Below are positions 4,041-15,972 of a stretch of 24,983 bases of DNA, in pieces. The notes beneath the pieces were generated by a model. The model searched no databases, was not told where the DNA came from, and worked only from the letters and a program-made list of their open reading frames with translations. How positions within the stretch are numbered: position 1 is the first letter of the stretch; each line of letters begins with the position of its first letter. Origin of the DNA: a virus. Where the stretch lies: positions 1 to 24,983 of IMG/VR virus record IMGVR_UViG_3300046514_000119; one strand, given 5' to 3'. A program made the translations under genes and the position numbers.

Positions 4041-5831
4041 ATGGCGACGCCCATCGTCAGTGCCGCGACGCCCGCGGAGATCGAAAAGCGCCGGATTTGC
4101 GAGCAGTACCGTTCCCAGCTCTGGACCGAGCGCTCGACGTTTGACGCGCACTGGAAGGATGTCGCCGAGCACATTCTCCCGCGCCGGGCGCGGTTCACGA
4201 CGTTCGACGTCAACCGGGGCGACAAGCGGCACAACAAGATCATCGACTCGTCCGCCACGATGGCCGTCCGCACGCTCCGCTCCGGCATGATGGCCGGCGT
4301 CACGAGTCCCGCGCGGCCGTGGTTCCGGCTCTCGGTGCCCTACCCCGACTTGGCCGAGCAGCCGGAAGTCAAAGACTATCTGTACGAGGTCACGCGGCGG
4401 ATGGAGCACATCTTTGTCGCGTCCAACCTCTACAACAAGCTCCCGACGGTCTACGGCGATTTGGGCGTCTTCGGCACGTCGGCGATGTCCGTCATGGAAG
4501 ACGACGAAGACGTGATCCGGTGCTACGACTTCCCGCTGGGGTCGTACGTGATCGCGAACGACGGCAAGCTCCGACCCCGCACGTTCATCCGTGCATTCCG
4601 CCTCTCGGTCCAACAGGTTGTCGAGAACTGGGGGAACATCGACCCCAAGACGGGCGAGCCCGACTTCGTCGCGGGTCGCCCGACGAACATCTCTCCGACG
4701 GTGCAAGACCAGTGGAACCGCGGCAACCGCTTCGCGTGGGTCGACCTCGTCCACACGATCCAGCCGAACTCGCTCTACGACGGCGTCAAGTTCGAGTCCA
4801 AGTACAAGCGGTTCGAGTGCCTGTACTACGAGCAGGGCCGGACGGACGTCGGGTTCCTCGAGCGCACGGGCTACGACGAGTTCCCGGTGCTGGTGCCGCG
4901 CTGGGAAGTGTCGGGCGAAGACGTGTACGGCACGAACTGTCCCGGCATGGAAGCGTTGGGCGACATCAAGCAACTGCAGCAGGGCGAGAAGCGCTCGGCG
5001 CAGGCGGTCGAGAAGTCGATCAACCCGCCGCTCACGGCGCCGGTGCGGCTCCAGAACCAGCGCGTGTCGATGCTGCCCGGCGACATCACGTACGTCGACA
5101 CCCGCGACGGCCAAGACGGTGTGCGCGCGACGTACGAGGTGAACTTCGACGTGTCGAAGCTCGAGCAGAAGCAGCAGCAGGTCCGGCTCCGCGTGCAGCG
5201 CGCGTTCTTCGAAGACCTGTTCCTCATGTTCGCGTCATCGGACCGCCGGGAGATCACCGCGCGCGAAGTTGACGAGCGGCACGAAGAGAAGCTCCTCGCG
5301 TTGGGGCCGGTGCTCGAGCAGCTCAACCAGGATCTCTTGGACCCGCTGATCGAGCGGACGTTCAACATCATGAACCGCCGCGGGCTCTTGCCGGAAGTGC
5401 CCGACGCGCTCAACGGCGTGCCGCTCAAGATCGAGTACATATCGATCATGGCGCAGGCCCAAAAGGCGATCGGACTGGCCGGCCTCGAGCGCTTCGCGGG
5501 ATTCGTCGGTCAGGTCGCGACGGTGTCGCCCGACATTCTGGACCGCGTCGACAATGACGAGCTGATCGAGTCGTACGCCGACGGGACCGGGATTCCGCCG
5601 AAGATCCTCCGCTCGGTCGACGACGCGCAGCAGATCCGCGACCAACGCGCCAAGGCGGCACAGGTGCAACAGGCCGCGCAAAACGCGCCGCAGATCGCCG
5701 GCGCCGTCAGAGACTTGTCACAGAGTCCGACCGGCGACGGTCACTCAGCGCTGTCCCAGTTGCTCGGCAATGTGCGCGCGAAAGCGCAGCTCAACGCAAC
5801 GTCCGGCCCGCCGAACGTGGGGCTTAACTGA
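4041..5831 (+). CDS. Portal protein (head-to-tail connecting protein)
   Basis: This 596-residue protein forms the ring at the single packaging vertex through which DNA enters and leaves and to which the tail attaches. The N-terminal region shows the family signature W-K-D-V-A-E-H-I-L-P-R-R-A-R-F near residue 35, then I-I-D-S-S-A-T-M-A-V-R-T-L-R-S-G-M-M-A-G-V-T-S-P-A-R-P-W-F near 65-95. Further matches are L-Y-x-x-L-P-T-V-Y-x-D-L-G-V-F-G-T near 135 and a long helical C-terminal half with Q-Q-Q-V-R-L-R-V-Q-R-A-F-F-E-D-L-F. The length matches the head-tail connector portals of podoviruses. The C-terminus is Gln/Ala-rich. The stop overlaps the next start as TGATG. Confidence 0.95.
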   Translation: MATPIVSAATPAEIEKRRICEQYRSQLWTERSTFDAHWKDVAEHILPRRARFTTFDVNRGDKRHNKIIDSSATMAVRTLRSGMMAGVTSPARPWFRLSVPYPDLAEQPEVKDYLYEVTRRMEHIFVASNLYNKLPTVYGDLGVFGTSAMSVMEDDEDVIRCYDFPLGSYVIANDGKLRPRTFIRAFRLSVQQVVENWGNIDPKTGEPDFVAGRPTNISPTVQDQWNRGNRFAWVDLVHTIQPNSLYDGVKFESKYKRFECLYYEQGRTDVGFLERTGYDEFPVLVPRWEVSGEDVYGTNCPGMEALGDIKQLQQGEKRSAQAVEKSINPPLTAPVRLQNQRVSMLPGDITYVDTRDGQDGVRATYEVNFDVSKLEQKQQQVRLRVQRAFFEDLFLMFASSDRREITAREVDERHEEKLLALGPVLEQLNQDLLDPLIERTFNIMNRRGLLPEVPDALNGVPLKIEYISIMAQAQKAIGLAGLERFAGFVGQVATVSPDILDRVDNDELIESYADGTGIPPKILRSVDDAQQIRDQRAKAAQVQQAAQNAPQIAGAVRDLSQSPTGDGHSALSQLLGNVRAKAQLNATSGPPNVGLN

Positions 5832-7005: not shown

Positions 7006-7695
7006 ATGTCCGATGATGTGAACTCGACCGCGGCGCCGGGAACACCCGGCACGACAGCGCCAGCCAACACCGCCGACGCGACAGCGCCCGACGCTCCGGC
7101 GGCTGATGCACCGCCAGTCGTCGCGGATGCTGCCACGCCTGACGCACCAGCGACACCCGATACGCCGGCCGTTGTCGCGCCGGTGGTTCCTGAAACGTAC
7201 GATTTGAAGTTGCCCGCGGACTCGACGCTCGATCCCGCCATCGTGGAGAGGACAGCCGCCATTGCGCGCGAGCTGGGACTTTCGAACGAGGCCGGACAGA
7301 AAGCGCTCGACTTCGCGGCCGCCGAACGCTCCGCGGCGGTGCAGGAATACGAAGCGGCACGACAGCCGGGCGGTCCGGCGTGGAAGGAGAACGTCACGCG
7401 GCTGGAAGCCGAAGCGTTGGCGGATCCCGAGATTGGTGGCTCGCCCGAGAAGTTGGCGGCGTCCGCTGAACTGGGGAAACAAGCCCTCACGAAGTTCTTC
7501 CCGCCCGAGATCAAAGCTTTCCTCGATGAGACCGGGCTCGGCTCGGACCCGCGTGTCTTGCGTGGGCTCGTGAAGATCGCGAAGGGCATGGGCGAAGGAA
7601 AGCTCGTGCTCGGCGGGACCAGCGACGGCGACAGCAACAGCGAAGAAGCGAAACTCGCGCGGATGTACCCGTCGATGGTGAAGAAGTCGGCGTAG
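7006..7695 (+). CDS. Capsid scaffolding protein
   Basis: The 229-residue protein precedes the capsid gene and would form the internal scaffold that guides procapsid assembly and then leaves. Residues 5-62 are a low-complexity Pro/Ala/Thr/Asp linker. The rest carries the family pattern: Y-D-L-K-L-P, A-I-A-R-E-L-G-L-S-N-E-A-G-Q-K, a W-K-E-N-V helix, D-P-E-I-G-G, F-F-P-P-E-I-K-A-F-L-D-E-T-G-L-G, and R-G-L-V-K-I-A-K-G-M-G-E-G-K-L-V-L, ending with M-Y-P-S-M. The ribosome site is GAGG at 6996-6999, six bases before ATG. No prohead protease domain is visible here or elsewhere in the window. Confidence 0.9.
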   Translation: MSDDVNSTAAPGTPGTTAPANTADATAPDAPAADAPPVVADAATPDAPATPDTPAVVAPVVPETYDLKLPADSTLDPAIVERTAAIARELGLSNEAGQKALDFAAAERSAAVQEYEAARQPGGPAWKENVTRLEAEALADPEIGGSPEKLAASAELGKQALTKFFPPEIKAFLDETGLGSDPRVLRGLVKIAKGMGEGKLVLGGTSDGDSNSEEAKLARMYPSMVKKSA

Positions 7696-7728
7696 ACGCA
7701 GTAGACACTCCCCACCACAAACCACACG

Positions 7729-7751
7729 CGGCCGCCTTCATCGGGCGGCCG
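7729..7751 (+). terminator. Intercistronic hairpin before the capsid gene
   Basis: CGGCCGCC (7729-7736) pairs perfectly with GGCGGCCG (7744-7751) across a seven-base loop. The stem is followed by GTTCGCATTC rather than a clean T run, so termination would be weak. It lies in the 84-base gap between scaffold and capsid genes. It could be a partial terminator, or a stem that stabilises or processes the capsid mRNA. I see no other gene in the gap. Confidence 0.5.
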
Positions 7752-7779
7752 TTCGCATTCACCCTATGAGGATTCTCCC

Positions 7780-8880
7780 ATGAAAACCCTGTTCACCCGG
7801 TGGCCGATGCTGCTGGCGCTGACGCTCGTCGGCCTGTTGGTCGGCTTGGCGGCGCCTGCGTCGGCATCGATCGCCATGATCGGCTTCGCCGGTACGGCCC
7901 TGGCGTCCGGCAACCCAACGCTCCTCGATCTCGCCAAGCGCCTCGATCCCGGCGGCTCCGTGGCCGACGTCGTCGAGATTCTGAACGAGACGAATGAAGT
8001 GCTCGACGATATGACGTGGCTCGAAGGCAATCTCCCGACGGGGCACCGCTCCGTCATTCGGACCGGCATTCCGACGCCGACGTGGCGCAAAATGTACGGC
8101 GCAGTTGCCCCCGGAAAATCGACCACGGCGGCCGTCACGGATACGTGCGGCATGTTGGAAGCCTATTCGAACGTTGATAAGGCGCTGGCGGACATCAACG
8201 GCAACACCGCCGCGTTCCGCATGTCGGAAGACAAAGCCTTCCTCGAGGGCATGTCGGAAGAGGTCGCGGGGACGTTGTTCTACGGCAACCAGGGCACGGA
8301 GCCGGAAGCCTTCACGGGCTTGGCTCCCCGTTTCTCCGGTCTGACGGCCGCGCAGTCGGGCGACAACATCATCGACGCCTTCACCGGGTCGGGTGGCGAT
8401 CTGACGTCGATCTGGCTCGTCGTCTGGGGTCCGCGTACGGTCCACGGCATCGTGCCGCAGGGCTCGAAGGCCGGCTTCCAGCAGCAGGATTTGGGCGAGA
8501 CGATGATCCAGTCGTCGAGCGGCAACTATCAGGCGTACGTCACGCATTACCGCTGGGACGCGGGACTGTGCGTCCGCGATTGGCGCTACGTCGCGCGCGT
8601 CGCGAACATCGACGTGTCGGAAATCTTGGTCGCGTCGGACGCGAAGCGTCTGATCACGTTTATGATCCAGGCCGTCGAGCGCATCCCGAACTTGGGCGCG
8701 GGCCGGCCGGTGTTCTACATGAACCGGCGCGTCCGTGAAGCGCTCCGCATCGGCATCATCGAGAAGATCGCGAACAACCTGACGTGGGACACGGTCGCCG
8801 GGAAGCATGTGATGACGTTCGACTCGATCCCGGTCCGCCGCTCCGATCAGATCCTCATCACCGAGTCGCGCGTCGTCTAA
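7780..8880 (+). CDS. Major capsid protein with signal-peptide-like N-terminus
   Basis: This is the main shell protein, 366 residues. The core begins near residue 33 and is characteristic of the family: N-P-T-L-L-D-L-A-K-R-L-D-P-G-G, V-V-E-I-L-N-E-T-N-E-V-L-D-D-M, E-G-N-L-P-T-G-H-R, P-T-W-R-K-M-Y and D-I-N-G-N-T-A-A-F-R. Residues 1-32 are unusual: K2 and R7, then a hydrophobic stretch from P9 to G22, then A-P-A-S-A-S (A27-S28-A29) resembling a Sec signal peptide with an AxA cleavage site. The ribosome site GAGGA (7768-7772) is seven bases before ATG 7780. The internal ATG at 7876, which would give a normal-length protein, has no visible ribosome site, so the long form is preferred. Confidence 0.94.
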   Translation: MKTLFTRWPMLLALTLVGLLVGLAAPASASIAMIGFAGTALASGNPTLLDLAKRLDPGGSVADVVEILNETNEVLDDMTWLEGNLPTGHRSVIRTGIPTPTWRKMYGAVAPGKSTTAAVTDTCGMLEAYSNVDKALADINGNTAAFRMSEDKAFLEGMSEEVAGTLFYGNQGTEPEAFTGLAPRFSGLTAAQSGDNIIDAFTGSGGDLTSIWLVVWGPRTVHGIVPQGSKAGFQQQDLGETMIQSSSGNYQAYVTHYRWDAGLCVRDWRYVARVANIDVSEILVASDAKRLITFMIQAVERIPNLGAGRPVFYMNRRVREALRIGIIEKIANNLTWDTVAGKHVMTFDSIPVRRSDQILITESRVV

Positions 8881-8917: not shown

Positions 8918-9397
8918 ATGTCTATCATGGATTCAACCCTCGAGTTTGCCGATGCGGTCAGCGTCGCCGCGGTGGCAAGCACGATTCTCGTCGGGAACCA
9001 GATCCCGCTCACGGTCGCGCGCGACGTCGGCAACGGTCGTCCGATCTACCTCGTGATCACCGTCGACACCGAGATCATCACGGGCGGCTCGGCGGGCACC
9101 ATCAACTTCCAACTGGCGTCGGATGCACAGGCCGCGATCGCGACCGACGGTACGGCGACGGTCCATTGGGACAGCGGCCCGATCGTGACCGACGATTCCG
9201 CCGCGAACAGCGACTTGTGCAACGCGGGCGCTGTGGTCGCGTGCCTCGCGCTGCCGCTCGAAGGCAAGCCGTACGAGGCCTTCCTGGGCATTCTTGCCGT
9301 CATCACGACCACGACAACGACGGCCGGCAAGATCAACGCCTGGCTCACGCTGGATCCGCCGGTGTGGAAGTCGTACGCCAACTCCGCGAACGCGTAA
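8918..9397 (+). CDS. Capsid cement protein (Bbp16-like)
   Basis: The 159-residue protein directly follows the capsid gene with a good ribosome site (GGAG 8907-8910). It opens with I-M-D-S-T-L-E-F-A-D-A, then A-R-D-V-G-N-G-R-P-I-Y-L-V-I-T-V-D (35-51) and I-N-F-Q-L-A-S-D-A-Q. This is the layout of Bbp16-type cement proteins, which sit on the outside of the shell and strengthen it. It is beta-rich with no membrane segment. The late G-K-I-N-A-W-L-T-L-D and W-K-S-Y-A-N-S motifs fit the C-terminal strands of the family. Expression would match the capsid protein, with a structured gap behind it. Confidence 0.85.
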   Translation: MSIMDSTLEFADAVSVAAVASTILVGNQIPLTVARDVGNGRPIYLVITVDTEIITGGSAGTINFQLASDAQAAIATDGTATVHWDSGPIVTDDSAANSDLCNAGAVVACLALPLEGKPYEAFLGILAVITTTTTTAGKINAWLTLDPPVWKSYANSANA

Positions 9398-10419: not shown

Positions 10420-13400
10420 ATTAATAAAGCGCAACGCTCGTTCGCCAAAGGGGAGATCGCCCCGGCGCTCCACGCGCGCACCGATGCCGCGGCGTACGAT
10501 GTCGGGCTCACGAAGTGCCGGAACTTCATGATCATGCGCCAGGGCGGCGCGACCAAACGCCCCGGCACCGAGTACATCGGCCAGATCCGCGACATCACGA
10601 AGCGTGGTCGGCTGATCCCGTTCGTGTTCAACGTGCGCGACGCGCTCGAGCTGGAATTCGGGCACCTCACGCTCCGGTTCCTGCAGGACGGCGCCTTCAT
10701 CGCGGACCCGATCGACCCGACGGAGATCTATGAGATCCTGTCGCCGTACACGGAAGCCGAATTGCCGGCGTTGCAGTACGTGCAATCGGGCGACGTCGTC
10801 ACGATCGTCCACCCGTCGCATCCGCCGTACGAACTCAAGCGCCTGGCGAACAACGACTGGACGCTGACCGCCATCACCTTTGGCGCCACGATCGCGGCAC
10901 CGACCAGCGTCGTCGCTGCTGGTGGGAACTGGAAACTGCCGCGCGAAGTGAAGTATGTCGTGACGGCCATCGACGCCTTCGGGGAAGAGTCGCTCGCGAG
11001 CAACGTCGCGACGAACCCCAATCCGCCCGGCGAGATTCCGGTCGTCGTCAACGGCTCGTGCCCCGGCGCGGTGACGTTCAACGTCTACCGCTCCGAGCAA
11101 GGCGCTGGGGTCTTCGGTTTCGTGGGCTCCGGCGTGCCGACGAGCGATCTCGTGTCGTTCGCCGACTACGGCACGCTCCCGGACTACACGATCCAACCGC
11201 CGATCGAGAAGTTGCCGTTCGCGGCGGCTGGGGATTACCCCAGTGTGGTCGCGTACTACCAGCAACGCCTCGTGTTCGCGAACACGAACAACCATCCCGA
11301 CACGGTCTGGTGCTCGCGCACCGGCCACTTCCACAACTTCAACGTGTCGGTGGTCGTGCAGGACGACGACGCGATCACGTTCCGGCTCGTCTCGGACGAA
11401 GTCGACGCGATCCGCCATATCCTGACGGTCGGTCGGATGATCGTCGGCACCGAAGGCGTCGCGTGGATCATCGAAGGCGGCGCCGATGGCGTGCTGACTC
11501 CGGTCTCGGTCAACGCCCGTGCCGCGTCGTATGACGGCATGTCGGCCTTGCGCCCCGTCAAGATCGGCGAGCGGATGCTGTTCGTCCAAGCGTTGGGTGG
11601 CGTCGTGCGGGAACTTCGGGCCAATGTGCAATTCGGCTCGTACTCGTTCGCGGGTGGCGACCTCACGATCTACTCGAGCCATCTGGTTGACGGCTACACG
11701 ATCGTCGACTGGGCCTTCCAGCAGGAACCCGCGCATACGTTGTGGGCGGTGCGGTCAGATGGCGTGTTGCTCTCGCTGACGTACATCCCCGACCAAGAAA
11801 TGCTCGCCTGGGCGCGGCACGATACAAAGGGCTTTATCGAGAACGTGTCGGTCGTGCCCGAAGGGAAAAGCCATTGGGTGTATTGGATCGTCCGCCGGCT
11901 GATCAATGGCGCGTATCGGCGCTACATCGAACGCCAGACGGTCTCGGCGATCGTGCCGGTGTTCTCAACCGTTGAGGAGATCGCGGGCACGCCGGGCGGG
12001 ATTGTCACGCCGCCGCCGCCACCGATCCCGTTGCCCGTCGTCGGGACGCGCTACGTCGTAACGGTGAGCAGCACGACGCCGACGGCGGGATCAACCGTCG
12101 AACTCGCCGCGCAGCTCGTGGACGCGGACGGCAATCCCGTCGCCCTTGAAGGCATCACGGGGACGTGGACCAAGACCGGCACGGGCGGCATCCTCTCCGC
12201 GAATGGGACGACGAACGATGCCGGCCTCGCCACCGGGTCGCTCGCGGTGTCGTACGACGACGCGGTGAACCACGCGGTGACGTTCACTGACGGCACGGGC
12301 CGGTTCGGCATCTCGTCCACGATCAACATTCAGCCGCTCTCCGCGAGCGACCCGACGCTGCCGACGACGTACGACACAACGTATCCGGCCACGCCGGGCA
12401 CCGTGCATACCGTCAATGGTGGGGACGACTTGCAAGCGGTCCTCAACGCGGCACAGCCGGGCGACGAAATCGTCCTCCAGGCGGGCGCGACGTTCACGGG
12501 GAATTACGAGCTGCCCGTCCATCCGCTGCTCGGGCTCGGCGCGGACTTCATCGTGATCCGGTCGGGCGGCGCGATCACTCCCGCCGTGGACACGCGCGCC
12601 GTGCCGGCCGATGCGTCGGGCTTCGCCAAGACCATTACGCCGAACGTCGCGCCGGCCTTCCTCGTGCGCGACGGCGCGTCCAAATGGTGGCTGTCGCGCG
12701 TCGAGATTTCGGCCACGCCGCAAGGCGGCGGTGTCGATTACAACTACGGGCTCGTGCGGATCGGCGGCGCGGAGACATCGGTCGCGCAACAGCCGTCCGA
12801 TATCGTCCTCGATCGCTGCTACGTCCACGGCAACACGGTGCAGGTCCAGCACGGCGTGTTACTCAACGGCGTGCGGAACGCGGTGATCGACTCGACGGTC
12901 AGTGAGATCCATTGGGTGGGCACCGAGACGCACGCGGTCGGCGGCTGGGCGGGCCAAGGCCCGTTCAAGATCGAGAACAACTACCTCGAAGCGGCCAGCA
13001 TCAACGTGCTCTTCGGCGGCGCGGACCCGGTCGTCACGAACCTCATCCCGTCCGATATCGAGATTCGCCGGAACCATTTCTACAAGCCGACCGCGTATCG
13101 CGGCCTCGGCTACGCCGTCAAGAATCTGCTGGAGTTCAAGAACGCGAAGCGCGTCCTCATCGAGGGCAACGTGTTCGAGAATTCCTGGCCCGACGGACAG
13201 ATCGGATGGGGCATCATCATCGACTCGATGCAGGGCGGGTCTTTCAGCGCTCCGTGGTCGCAAGTCAGCGACGTGACGTGCCAGTACAACAAGATGAAGA
13301 ACGTGAGCGCCGGATTCCAAATCTCGGGCGGCCAGACGCCGGCCGGGTCTGGGGTTCCCACCGCCGCGACGCGCATCGTGCTCCGGCATATGGTGTTCGA

Positions 13401-13884
13401 GAACATCGGCGGCGACGGCGTGTCGATCGGCGTGCAGCTCATCTCGAATCCCGGCCTCGAACTCAGCCACGCGCACGTCTCACACATCACCGTCCTCCGC
13501 AACACGGAAGCGATTGGGGCACCCGTGGAAGTCGTCGGCGAAGGCGCGAGCGATATCGTGCTCCGCGACAGCGTCTTCGTGACCGGCACGCCCTACGGCG
13601 GAATCTTCAGGGACGGCGGACTCACCGGGGCTCCAGCGCTCGACGCCTTTGCGCCCGGCACCGCGTGGGATGCGTTCGGGAACCTGTTCGTGCACGACGC
13701 GGTGAGCAACGAACCGGACGGCAACGCGAGCCCGGCCACGATCGCCGCCGTGGGCTTTGTCGACTACGCGGGCGGCAACTATCGGCTGGCCGTCAGCAGC
13801 GCGTACCACAACGCGGCGACGGATGGCACCGACCCCGGCGCCGACATCGACGCGGTTGAGACGGCGATCGCGGGCGTCGTATAA
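10420..13884 (+). CDS. Tail nozzle (gp12-like) N-terminal part fused to Ig-like and beta-helix domains; ATT start
   Basis: In this frame the conserved nozzle N-terminus (N-K-A-Q-R-S-F-A-K-G-E-I-A-P-A-L-H-A-R-T-D) lies upstream of the first ATG (10528). It begins exactly at ATT 10420, six bases after GGAG (10410-10413), and no ATG, GTG or TTG fits. The 1154-residue product has the nozzle body to about residue 505 (R-Q-G-G-A-T-x-R-P-G-T-E-Y near 40, Q-Q-R-L-V-F-A near 280, ending Y-I-E-R at 502). A Pro linker follows (531-535), then an Ig-like domain (about 542-640) and a pectate-lyase-like right-handed beta-helix (about 662-1110). The helix carries G-G-D-D-L-Q-A-V-L-N-A-A-Q-P-G-D, S-D-I-V-L-D-R-C-Y-V-H-G and S-D-I-E-I-R-R-N-H-F. 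The usual nozzle C-terminus is absent. The distal part probably binds or cleaves a host surface polysaccharide. Confidence 0.9.
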   Translation: MNKAQRSFAKGEIAPALHARTDAAAYDVGLTKCRNFMIMRQGGATKRPGTEYIGQIRDITKRGRLIPFVFNVRDALELEFGHLTLRFLQDGAFIADPIDPTEIYEILSPYTEAELPALQYVQSGDVVTIVHPSHPPYELKRLANNDWTLTAITFGATIAAPTSVVAAGGNWKLPREVKYVVTAIDAFGEESLASNVATNPNPPGEIPVVVNGSCPGAVTFNVYRSEQGAGVFGFVGSGVPTSDLVSFADYGTLPDYTIQPPIEKLPFAAAGDYPSVVAYYQQRLVFANTNNHPDTVWCSRTGHFHNFNVSVVVQDDDAITFRLVSDEVDAIRHILTVGRMIVGTEGVAWIIEGGADGVLTPVSVNARAASYDGMSALRPVKIGERMLFVQALGGVVRELRANVQFGSYSFAGGDLTIYSSHLVDGYTIVDWAFQQEPAHTLWAVRSDGVLLSLTYIPDQEMLAWARHDTKGFIENVSVVPEGKSHWVYWIVRRLINGAYRRYIERQTVSAIVPVFSTVEEIAGTPGGIVTPPPPPIPLPVVGTRYVVTVSSTTPTAGSTVELAAQLVDADGNPVALEGITGTWTKTGTGGILSANGTTNDAGLATGSLAVSYDDAVNHAVTFTDGTGRFGISSTINIQPLSASDPTLPTTYDTTYPATPGTVHTVNGGDDLQAVLNAAQPGDEIVLQAGATFTGNYELPVHPLLGLGADFIVIRSGGAITPAVDTRAVPADASGFAKTITPNVAPAFLVRDGASKWWLSRVEISATPQGGGVDYNYGLVRIGGAETSVAQQPSDIVLDRCYVHGNTVQVQHGVLLNGVRNAVIDSTVSEIHWVGTETHAVGGWAGQGPFKIENNYLEAASINVLFGGADPVVTNLIPSDIEIRRNHFYKPTAYRGLGYAVKNLLEFKNAKRVLIEGNVFENSWPDGQIGWGIIIDSMQGGSFSAPWSQVSDVTCQYNKMKNVSAGFQISGGQTPAGSGVPTAATRIVLRHMVFENIGGDGVSIGVQLISNPGLELSHAHVSHITVLRNTEAIGAPVEVVGEGASDIVLRDSVFVTGTPYGGIFRDGGLTGAPALDAFAPGTAWDAFGNLFVHDAVSNEPDGNASPATIAAVGFVDYAGGNYRLAVSSAYHNAATDGTDPGADIDAVETAIAGVV
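12009..12023 (+). repeat. 15-bp direct repeat, left copy
   Basis: GCCGCCGCCGCCACC is identical to the copy at 15093-15107. It encodes the Pro-5 linker at the end of the nozzle body and lies in the same codon phase as the other copy. Low complexity means chance similarity is possible. Confidence 0.55.
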
Positions 13885-13914: not shown

Positions 13915-14913
13915 ATGACACTCCTCCGACTCGATGGATTCGAAGGCTACGGCGGCGCGCTGGGCCTCGCGCAAGGCTACTCTGGCGCCTCGGCCGGCCT
14001 GAGCGTCGGCAACGGGCGCGGGGGCGGGGCCGCGCTCTTTCTCCAGGGCACGACGTTCACGTTCATCACGCCCGACGGGGCGACGAACATCATTCAAGGG
14101 TTCGCGCGGAAATCGCTCCTCGGCGGGAACGCGATCGTCCAGATCAAGAGCGCCGTACAGGCCACGGGCTACGCGGATCTCGGCATCGATGAAGTCGGGC
14201 GGATCTTCTCCCACAAGATCGATCAGACCGACTGGTTCCGCGTCGACCCGGGAATGCGCCTCGGCGGCGTGTGGCGCTACTACGAACTCGACTTTAAGCT
14301 TCACGCCTCGGCGGGGCACATCATCCTCAGGATTGACGAACAGGAAATCGTCAACCTCACGGGCCTCAATACCGCGCAGTCCGCCGGCTCCGAAATCAAG
14401 AAGCTGATCTACAACGGCTCGGGCGAGTACTTCGACGACTACTACGTCTGCGACGATCAAGACACGTCGGACGGGTGCACGGGCTTTCTCGGCGACCGGC
14501 GGATGTTCAACATCTACCCCAATGGGGCGGTCACCGCCGCGTGGACGCCCAAAACCGTGGGCGCGAACTACCTCCAAGTCAAAGAGACCGCGAACGACGA
14601 CGACGGCTCGTATGTCTCGACGACGGTCGTTGATACCGAAGACAAGCACGATTATGAGAACACCGGACTCCCGGGCGCGCAGGAAGTGCTCGTCGCGCTC
14701 ATGACCTCGGCCCGGCGGGATGCGGACTCGGGGCCGCGCCAGTTGACGAGCTTCTTTGATTGCGGCGGCCATCGCCTCGAGGGCGCGCTGCACCAACTGT
14801 CCGAGACGTACTACATGGAACAGTTGCGGATGACGAAGCATCCGTTCACGGCCGCGAACCTGACGGCCGCCGACATCGACGCCGCGCGTGCCGGCTACCG
14901 GCTGACGGCGTAA
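13915..14913 (+). CDS. Lectin-like (jelly-roll) tail protein
   Basis: The 332-residue protein starts L-R-L-D-G-F-E-G-Y. It has a beta-sandwich-like N-terminal half with W-R-Y-Y-E-L-D-F-K-L-H (residues 119-129) and I-I-L-R-I-D-E-Q-E-I-V-N-L-T-G, resembling concanavalin A-like domains. It continues with Y-F-D-D-Y-Y-V-C-D-D, G-F-L-G-D-R-R-M-F-N-I-Y-P-N-G and a D-D-D-G-S-Y-V-S-T-T stretch. This D-D-x-Y-x-C-D ... F-L-G-D-x-R pattern recurs in phage tail proteins I know only as putative minor tail or receptor-binding proteins. It sits between the two nozzle parts, so a surface-binding role at the tail tip is a reasonable inference. The ribosome site is weak. Confidence 0.8.
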   Translation: MTLLRLDGFEGYGGALGLAQGYSGASAGLSVGNGRGGGAALFLQGTTFTFITPDGATNIIQGFARKSLLGGNAIVQIKSAVQATGYADLGIDEVGRIFSHKIDQTDWFRVDPGMRLGGVWRYYELDFKLHASAGHIILRIDEQEIVNLTGLNTAQSAGSEIKKLIYNGSGEYFDDYYVCDDQDTSDGCTGFLGDRRMFNIYPNGAVTAAWTPKTVGANYLQVKETANDDDGSYVSTTVVDTEDKHDYENTGLPGAQEVLVALMTSARRDADSGPRQLTSFFDCGGHRLEGALHQLSETYYMEQLRMTKHPFTAANLTAADIDAARAGYRLTA

Positions 14914-14922
14914 GGACACCCA

Positions 14923-15972
14923 GTGGCCGACGTCGCGCGTGTTAGTCAGCAATTCGGGATCGTTTCGACCGAGCCGGACCCTGGGGAAGGGTTCGTCTCT
15001 CAGCAGTTCGTCAATGTCACAACCGCGCCCGATCCCGCGACGGCGATCGTTACTCAGCAGTACATTATCGTCGCGATCGCGAACAACTTTGTGCCGCCGC
15101 CGCCACCCGTGGCGATCTCCCCGGCGGCCGTGGGTGCTCGTCGTGGCGCGTTCTACATGGACTCGACGCTCGAGTACGACGGGCGGAATGTCGGCGCCGT
15201 CGACGGCTTATTCCCCGGCGTGGTGCTCAACCTCACGGGCGGCACGACGTGGCAGCCCGGCGAAACGCTCACCGTCACCGCGAGCCTCGGCATCTTCACT
15301 GCCGACGACGTCGGGAACGTCCTCGTCCTCCACGCGGCGGATGACACGAAGGTGCGGTTCGCCATCACGGGCTTCGTGTCGGCGACGGTCGTCACGGGGA
15401 TCGTCGACGTGGCGGTGCCGGCCGATCTCCAGGACGCGACGGTCGCCACCTGGGACCGCGCCGTCGATCAAGTCGCGGGCGTCGATCACCTCGAGGGCGA
15501 ATACCTCGCGATCATGGGCGACGATCACGTCGTCGGCTCGCCGTACAATCCCGCCATCGCGCTCCGGCAAGTCGTCTCAGGCGTGGTCGATCTCGGGGAC
15601 AACTACACCCACATCTTCGTCGGCCTGCCGTACGTGTCCGATTTGGAAACGCTCGACATCGATACCCCGTCAGGGCCGAGCGTGAAGCAACAACAGGTCG
15701 ATGTCACGACCGTCGGGCTCATGCTGCTGCAATCGCGCTCGACGTTCGTGGGCGGGCGGCCGCCGTCCGATGATAGCGTCGACCTGTTGGAAGACTTGCT
15801 CGAGATGCCGCTGCCGACGGACGCGGACTACGAAACGCTCGCGACGGGCTATCGCGACATCGTGATTCCGAGCGCGTGGGACAAACGCGGGCACGTCTTC
15901 GTTCGCTCGGTCGATCCGACGCCGGTGACGGTGCTCGCTGCCATTCCGAACGGTCATTTCCCCCAGACCTGA
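14923..15972 (+). CDS. Split-off C-terminal domain of the tail nozzle
   Basis: The GTG start has AAGGA at 14912-14916, six bases upstream and overlapping the previous stop. The 349-residue product opens with three 18-residue repeats (V-S-Q-Q-F at 7 and 25, V-T-Q-Q-Y at 43), then a Pro-5 linker (58-62). From residue 75 it matches the usual C-terminus of gp12-like nozzles: G-A-F-Y-M-D-S-T-L-E-Y-D-G, an inserted beta domain, V-D-H-L-E-G (187-192), I-F-V-G-L-P-Y-V-S-D-L-E-T-L (about 228-241) and V-F-V-R-S-V-D-P-T-P-V-T-V-L near the end. These motifs are missing from the first nozzle gene, so the two products probably assemble together into one nozzle. The split is sequence-based; the assembly is inference. 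Confidence 0.85.
   Translation: MADVARVSQQFGIVSTEPDPGEGFVSQQFVNVTTAPDPATAIVTQQYIIVAIANNFVPPPPPVAISPAAVGARRGAFYMDSTLEYDGRNVGAVDGLFPGVVLNLTGGTTWQPGETLTVTASLGIFTADDVGNVLVLHAADDTKVRFAITGFVSATVVTGIVDVAVPADLQDATVATWDRAVDQVAGVDHLEGEYLAIMGDDHVVGSPYNPAIALRQVVSGVVDLGDNYTHIFVGLPYVSDLETLDIDTPSGPSVKQQQVDVTTVGLMLLQSRSTFVGGRPPSDDSVDLLEDLLEMPLPTDADYETLATGYRDIVIPSAWDKRGHVFVRSVDPTPVTVLAAIPNGHFPQT
14941..15075 (+). repeat. Three tandem 54-bp coding repeats (VSQQ/VTQQ units)
   Basis: Units begin at 14941, 14995 and 15049 and encode V-S-Q-Q-F, V-S-Q-Q-F and V-T-Q-Q-Y at an 18-residue period, with P-D-P closing the first two. The DNA copies are diverged, so the protein pattern is the one conserved. Similar V-T-Q repeats occur at the ends of other phage tail proteins. 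Confidence 0.7.
15093..15107 (+). repeat. 15-bp direct repeat, right copy
   Basis: Second copy of GCCGCCGCCGCCACC (other copy 12009-12023), encoding the Pro-5 linker before the split-off nozzle C-terminus. Joining the two copies would fuse the nozzle halves in frame. Confidence 0.55.

Follow-up and report, generated by a model that had tools for sequence, protein, structure and literature searches.

Among the closest described systems are BPP-1, a Bordetella phage (major capsid protein Bbp17, cement protein Bbp16), and epsilon15, a Salmonella phage (gp7), whose major capsid proteins (MCPs) belong to the same family as the one described here and whose genes run in the same order: portal, scaffold-like protein, MCP, cement and tail. 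Unlike the MCP described here, both of theirs start short. The BPP-1 MCP is reported to be uncleaved, with an N-terminus that points outward and augments the β sheet of the cement protein (PMC3863775). Capsid precursors of HK97 (the delta domain) and T4 have an extra, removable N-terminal segment. These segments are soluble and scaffold-like, and they are cut by a phage protease. In T4, for which cleavage of the precursor segment by the phage protease is documented, proheads form on the inner membrane (PMC9958956). There, the portal gp20 is the membrane contact, together with the chaperone gp40 and a contact to YidC, and release follows gp21 proteolysis. To our knowledge, the T4 shell protein gp23 has no signal-peptide-like N-terminus. 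The pVIII coat protein of filamentous phages does carry a signal peptide, is inserted into the membrane by YidC and is cut by signal peptidase, but it belongs to an unrelated virion type that is extruded through the membrane and has no HK97 fold. In the open-access papers searched, we found no precedent for a signal peptide on the MCP of a tailed phage.

The stretch of DNA analyzed here (the window) is an entire IMG/VR-style virus record, 24,983 bases long, linear and probably a fragment. It comes from an uncultivated virus of bacteria, an epsilon15/BPP-1-like podovirus. The record has one MCP gene only, which lies in a head module ordered portal, scaffold-like protein, MCP and Bbp16-type cement (Table 1). 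The protein matches the GP7 profile (PF20911) across the full core (residues 56–366, profile positions 1–313) at 447.9 bits (E = 2e-134), far above the curated cut-off of 27 bits, and also falls in phrog_212 of PHROGs. It aligns with the BPP-1 MCP structure (3j4u) from residue 41 (E = 6.5e-116) and is 63% identical to the MCP of Burkholderia phage BcepC6B and 55% identical to that of BPP-1. These comparisons place it in a known MCP family; its N-terminus, which reads MKTLFTRWPMLLALTLVGLLVGLAAPASASIAMIGFAGTALASGNPTLLD, is unusual. The protein encoded upstream is scaffold-like, with an Ala/Pro-rich start and a basic C-terminus; its family, phrog_458, is labelled 'protease', yet no Pfam domain is matched, and the label appears doubtful for this protein. 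The first-pass annotation saw no prohead protease in the window, an absence that is uninformative because the record is a fragment and because PHROGs gives this upstream family that label. Among the tail genes, the phrog_376 protein looks split: its first part matches only residues 2–471 of a 1118-aa ORF (10528–13884), while its last part is found in a separate ORF (14923–15972), with another gene (13915–14913) in between.

Table 1. Coordinates of the features discussed, in the window and in related loci (L numbers)
Feature	Locus	Coordinates	Strand	Remarks
Portal	window	4041-5831		part of the head gene neighbourhood
Scaffold-like protein, phrog_458 (labelled 'protease')	window	7006..7695	+	upstream of MCP; without hydrophobic N-terminus
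Shine-Dalgarno-like GAGGA	window	7768..7772	+	7 nt 5' of the long-form ATG
MCP ORF	window	7780-8880	+	366 aa; first residues MKTLFTRWPMLLALTLVGLLVGLAAPASASIAMIGFAGTALASGNPTLLDLAKRLDP
N-terminal extension of MCP, residues 1-37	window	7780..7890	+	from comparison with 181 short forms and the signal-peptide rule
Hydrophobic core MLLALTLVGLLVGLA, residues 10-24	window	7807..7851	+	mean Kyte-Doolittle 2.60
A27-S28-A29, signal-peptidase-I-like site	window	7858..7866	+	small-x-A at the matching place in other long forms
Second, weaker hydrophobic stretch IAMIGFAGTALA, residues 31-42	window	7870..7905	+	after the AxA site
MCP core, NPTLLD to C-terminus	window	7912..8877	+	BPP-1/epsilon15 topology family, GP7, phrog_212
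Cement protein, Bbp16 family	window	8918..9397	+	without N-terminal extension
Tail genes	window	after 9758		downstream of cement
Extended Bbp16-type cement	L055	11203-11796		
Extended Bbp16-type cement	L150	7013-7606		
Extended Bbp16-type cement	L151	11067-11636		
Extended Bbp16-type cement	L161	7140-7736		
Structural-looking protein with signal peptide	L141	3589-4299		
Structural-looking protein with signal peptide	L149	7745-8341		
Structural-looking protein with signal peptide	L083	4942-5298		
Structural-looking protein with signal peptide	L007	7491-8681		
Structural-looking protein with signal peptide	L010	8200-8757		
Structural-looking protein with signal peptide	L161	7863-8750		

Ahead of its core, the window MCP carries a signal-peptide-like extension, an observation of the first-pass annotation that our analysis confirms. 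The basic start (K2/R7), the hydrophobic core and the ASA site are all present in the sequence, and the claim that the long form alone is served by a ribosome site holds as well: GAGGA stands before the long ATG, and a start scan finds no ribosome site at the internal in-frame ATGs (residues 10 and 33). That the segment precedes the capsid N-terminus also stands, with a shifted boundary: the usual short start of relatives, MATLS--NPTLLD, aligns to residue 38 and not to M33, so the extension spans about 37 residues. By membrane-helix strength, the second stretch is plausible in L016, L149 and L160 and borderline in L008 and L084 (17-residue free-energy sums of -1.8 to 1.9 over these five), weak in the window (3.0), L002, L005, L072 and L172, and absent in the L124 group. 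AlphaFold predicts a helix at residues 8–19 and disorder at residues 22–41 of the window MCP, and at such low confidence the model decides nothing about the extension. Just 5' of the ribosome site, an RNA stem-loop (7728–7752) is not significant in the window (z = -1.5), while one upstream of the MCP start is strong in L135 and L140 (z = -4.6 and -5.1).

To place the extension among relatives, we surveyed 295 loci with 198 distinct MCPs, drawn from six viral-contig scans, one genome-contig scan (two loci) and the window. The start is short in 181 of these proteins and extended in 17. This ratio is not a natural frequency, long forms having served as seeds for the later scans. The apparently long matches of L064, L152, L182, L184 and others are tblastn alignments crossing stop codons, and these loci were counted as short. 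The long forms are scattered over the tree and, grouped by eye, have about eight sequence-unrelated extensions (the window; L002; L005/L072; L171/L172; L008/L016/L149/L160; L124/L129/L141/L253; L113/L135; L084). When the long label is mapped on a FastTree tree of MCP cores, it requires 15 changes, of which at least 11 are forced by starred branches. The layout is shared nonetheless, with a basic start, a hydrophobic core, small-x-A, a spacer or second hydrophobic stretch, and then TL[A/S]..NPTLLD, the TL[A/S] residues beside the core being kept in long and short forms alike. In all 17, a ribosome site precedes the long start, and the internal ATGs lack one. Of 91 cultured-phage records, none gives a match that enters the extension, and all eight annotated ones examined start short. 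Matches in plasmid-borne prophages start at residue 43 or later, and the sole long form among prophages in about 700 genomes is L226, a locus on a MAG contig.

The first-pass annotation had named beforehand the outcome that would count against it, namely that homologues all start at the internal methionine with the extension unconserved at the codon level. Most do start short, yet 17 distinct ones are extended, and in the groups that allow comparison the extension is mostly under purifying selection; we take it to be real. Over the extension, dN/dS is about 0.35–0.4 in the best pairs (0.2–0.3 in the first 28 codons) and 0.4–0.7 in most others, well above the 0.13–0.23 found for most cores in the same pairs; L113/L135 gives about 1.1 for the extension versus 0.54 for the core, and the changes in L171/L172 are too few for a reading. 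The segment is thus constrained, if loosely, and it evolves fast under mostly purifying selection. The long L135 and the short L140 share 87% DNA identity upstream through the ribosome site; a clean in-frame insertion follows directly after this common site, and 91% identity resumes from L140's own start, ATGGCAACT. In L135, that start corresponds to an internal ATG with no ribosome site. Gain in L135 and loss in L140 would look the same here. A junction at the first core codons is also seen in L129/L132 and L071/L049. In L141 (from 1737) and L143 (from 2643), the core DNA is near-identical, with 2 synonymous differences, a count made on L253 (same contig), whereas the extensions are only 49% identical, so that recombination must have broken the sequence at the extension/core junction. 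We read the extension as modular, gained or lost many times among these relatives.

These observations bear on two simple alternatives. An annotation or assembly artefact might be suspected where most relatives are short and the contigs are metagenomic, but identical long proteins recur in independent samples (L083–L085; L172/L173/L272; L005 and the MAG locus L226), the ribosome sites are in place and there is codon-level constraint; this explanation is largely refuted, and we regard it as most improbable. The extension could instead be a weak or mostly unused leader, with the working MCP supplied by internal starts or generic proteolysis and the extra piece tolerated or acting on expression only. 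The short majority manages without one, and in some long forms (L135, L113, L253) an internal ATG does lie at or near the short start. Against this, the internal ATGs all lack a ribosome site, several long forms (L149, L172, L008) have no suitable ATG near the core, and the extension is repeatedly and independently present under mostly purifying selection. An unused leader is in our view distinctly unlikely.

The resemblance to a signal peptide was evaluated by a home-made rule, not SignalP, that combines charge, a hydrophobic core and a small-x-small site at the right distance (the signal-peptide rule of Table 1). It is passed by 17 of 17 long forms, including the window, by none of the 181 short forms and by none of 177 in-frame upstream controls; because the rule was devised with the long forms already in view, the 17 of 17 is not independent and the controls carry the weight. 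Composition-preserving shuffles of the extensions pass in 10.6% of cases. Under this rule, the window MCP has the basic n-region, the h-region and the small-x-small spacing of a Sec signal peptide. The c-region is conserved within two groups (PEGS.[LM]A and P......A), much as in real signal peptides. Taken as sequence, the extension reads as signal-peptide-like and not as a product of chance.

Such a layout, complete with a cleavage-like site, raises the question of whether some or all of the MCP is genuinely exported and serves a second purpose in the periplasm or at the surface, for instance in superinfection exclusion or as a decoy. Export would be in keeping with other β-rich, structural-looking proteins in related loci that have ordinary signal peptides, but it would require a cytoplasmic pool for heads, and there is neither a short-form start site to supply one nor a second MCP gene in the window record. 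We judge genuine export to be very unlikely. The β-rich proteins lie between the cement and tail genes of related phages (Table 1); the six have no PHROGs family, and the five scanned against Pfam gave no match.

Hydrophobic N-termini also occur on other head proteins in some of the related loci. In L055, L150, L151 and L161, the cement protein has about 40–50 mostly hydrophobic residues, arranged as two stretches and a loop, before a MILDER-type start, with a ribosome site at the long start. The loop has no clear cleavage site, and in L151 the extension is predicted to form two low-confidence helices. The MCP is short in L151 and L161 and long in L150 and L055, while L016, L149 and L160 combine a long MCP with normal cement; in this clade, the extension can thus be on the MCP, the cement or both. 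Co-occurrence of extended cement with long MCP (p = 0.04, uncorrected for relatedness and for how many proteins were examined) is suggestive. The scaffold-like protein, in turn, has a basic-hydrophobic N-terminus in L071, L072, L171, L272 and L083, that is, in 5 of 14 long-MCP loci versus 0 of 159 short-MCP loci (p = 1.6e-6), or in 3 of 12 when near-copies are collapsed (p = 3e-4), neither value being corrected for the tree or the number of proteins tried; the hydrophobic segments are short. Portal and tail-tube proteins have no hydrophobic N-terminus in long- or short-MCP loci. The N-termini of MILDER cement cores and of internal virion proteins exceed a coarse hydrophobicity threshold but are not extensions and were left uncounted; the scaffold start of L151, which is Ala-rich, was set aside as well.

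The MCP extension could also be an uncut structural arm, a hydrophobic tail that packs on cement, neighbouring subunits or scaffold and stabilizes the shell without any secretion machinery. The N-terminal peptide of the BPP-1 MCP adds to the β sheet of cement (PMC3863775), the TL[A/S] next to the core is kept in long and short forms, the cement extensions of L150 and L151 are near the same site, and the scaffold segments co-occur with long MCPs. What a packing role leaves unaccounted for is the recurrence of basic start, hydrophobic core and small-x-A in unrelated sequences; the extension also diverges much faster than the core, unlike a packed interface, and exposed hydrophobic tails, present in their hundreds, should tend to aggregate. 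On balance, we consider a structural arm rather unlikely.

The explanation we favor, with somewhat less than an even chance of being right, is that an otherwise ordinary BPP-1-like MCP has acquired, as part of its translated sequence, a membrane-targeting N-terminus of the Sec/YidC type, and that the heads would be built at the membrane. The N-terminus would insert in the inner membrane as a signal peptide or, in forms with a strong second stretch, as a hairpin of two helices, and would hold head-building subunits at the cytoplasmic face, where proheads would nucleate. Host signal peptidase I would then probably clip many of the MCP forms, a likely step that would free the shell and leave an N-terminus near the normal one. 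An uncut extension would sit on the outer face of the shell, near a possible site of the cement extension, since the BPP-1 MCP N-terminus points outward to cement and the long forms keep TL[A/S]. Targeting of head subunits to the inner membrane would explain the repeated gain of unrelated hydrophobic N-termini on different head proteins. The roles proposed in the first-pass annotation are supported in part: membrane anchoring and clipping gain from the hydrophobic N-termini on cement and scaffold-like proteins, and interaction with the scaffold may be a further role.

Several points weigh against membrane targeting. By the positive-inside rule, the one-helix signal peptides of L124, L129, L141 and L253, if fully functional, would export the shell domain, and one has to suppose that folding in the cytoplasm retains it. 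In the window, as in several relatives, the second stretch is weak, and the cement hairpins have no clear cleavage site. Scaffold occupies the interior of the prohead, whereas the N-terminus of the MCP faces outward. In the window, the long MCP is accompanied by neither a cement extension nor a hydrophobic N-terminus on the scaffold-like protein, and among the 91 cultured-phage records no phage was seen with an MCP extension.

If membrane targeting is nevertheless right, the likeness to T4 would lie in head assembly tied to the membrane with release after proteolysis, and the difference in the contact and the cutting, which in T4 fall to the portal, not the shell protein, and to a phage protease. 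The window segment may be removed as the HK97 and T4 precursor segments are, although it differs from them in being short, hydrophobic and signal-peptide-like. A broader proposal, that a group of tailed phages builds HK97-fold heads on the inner membrane through membrane-targeting N-termini on shell, cement and/or scaffold, and that host signal peptidase instead of a phage protease frees the MCP, is one we put forward as doubtful. For annotation, the lesson is that it would be a mistake to trim such genes to the short start, and equally a mistake to file them as secreted. Should heads indeed be assembled at the membrane through tags on the shell proteins, an HK97-type capsid would be placed and matured by a different route, and the old question of why and how some proheads form on membranes would become testable by a single deletion.
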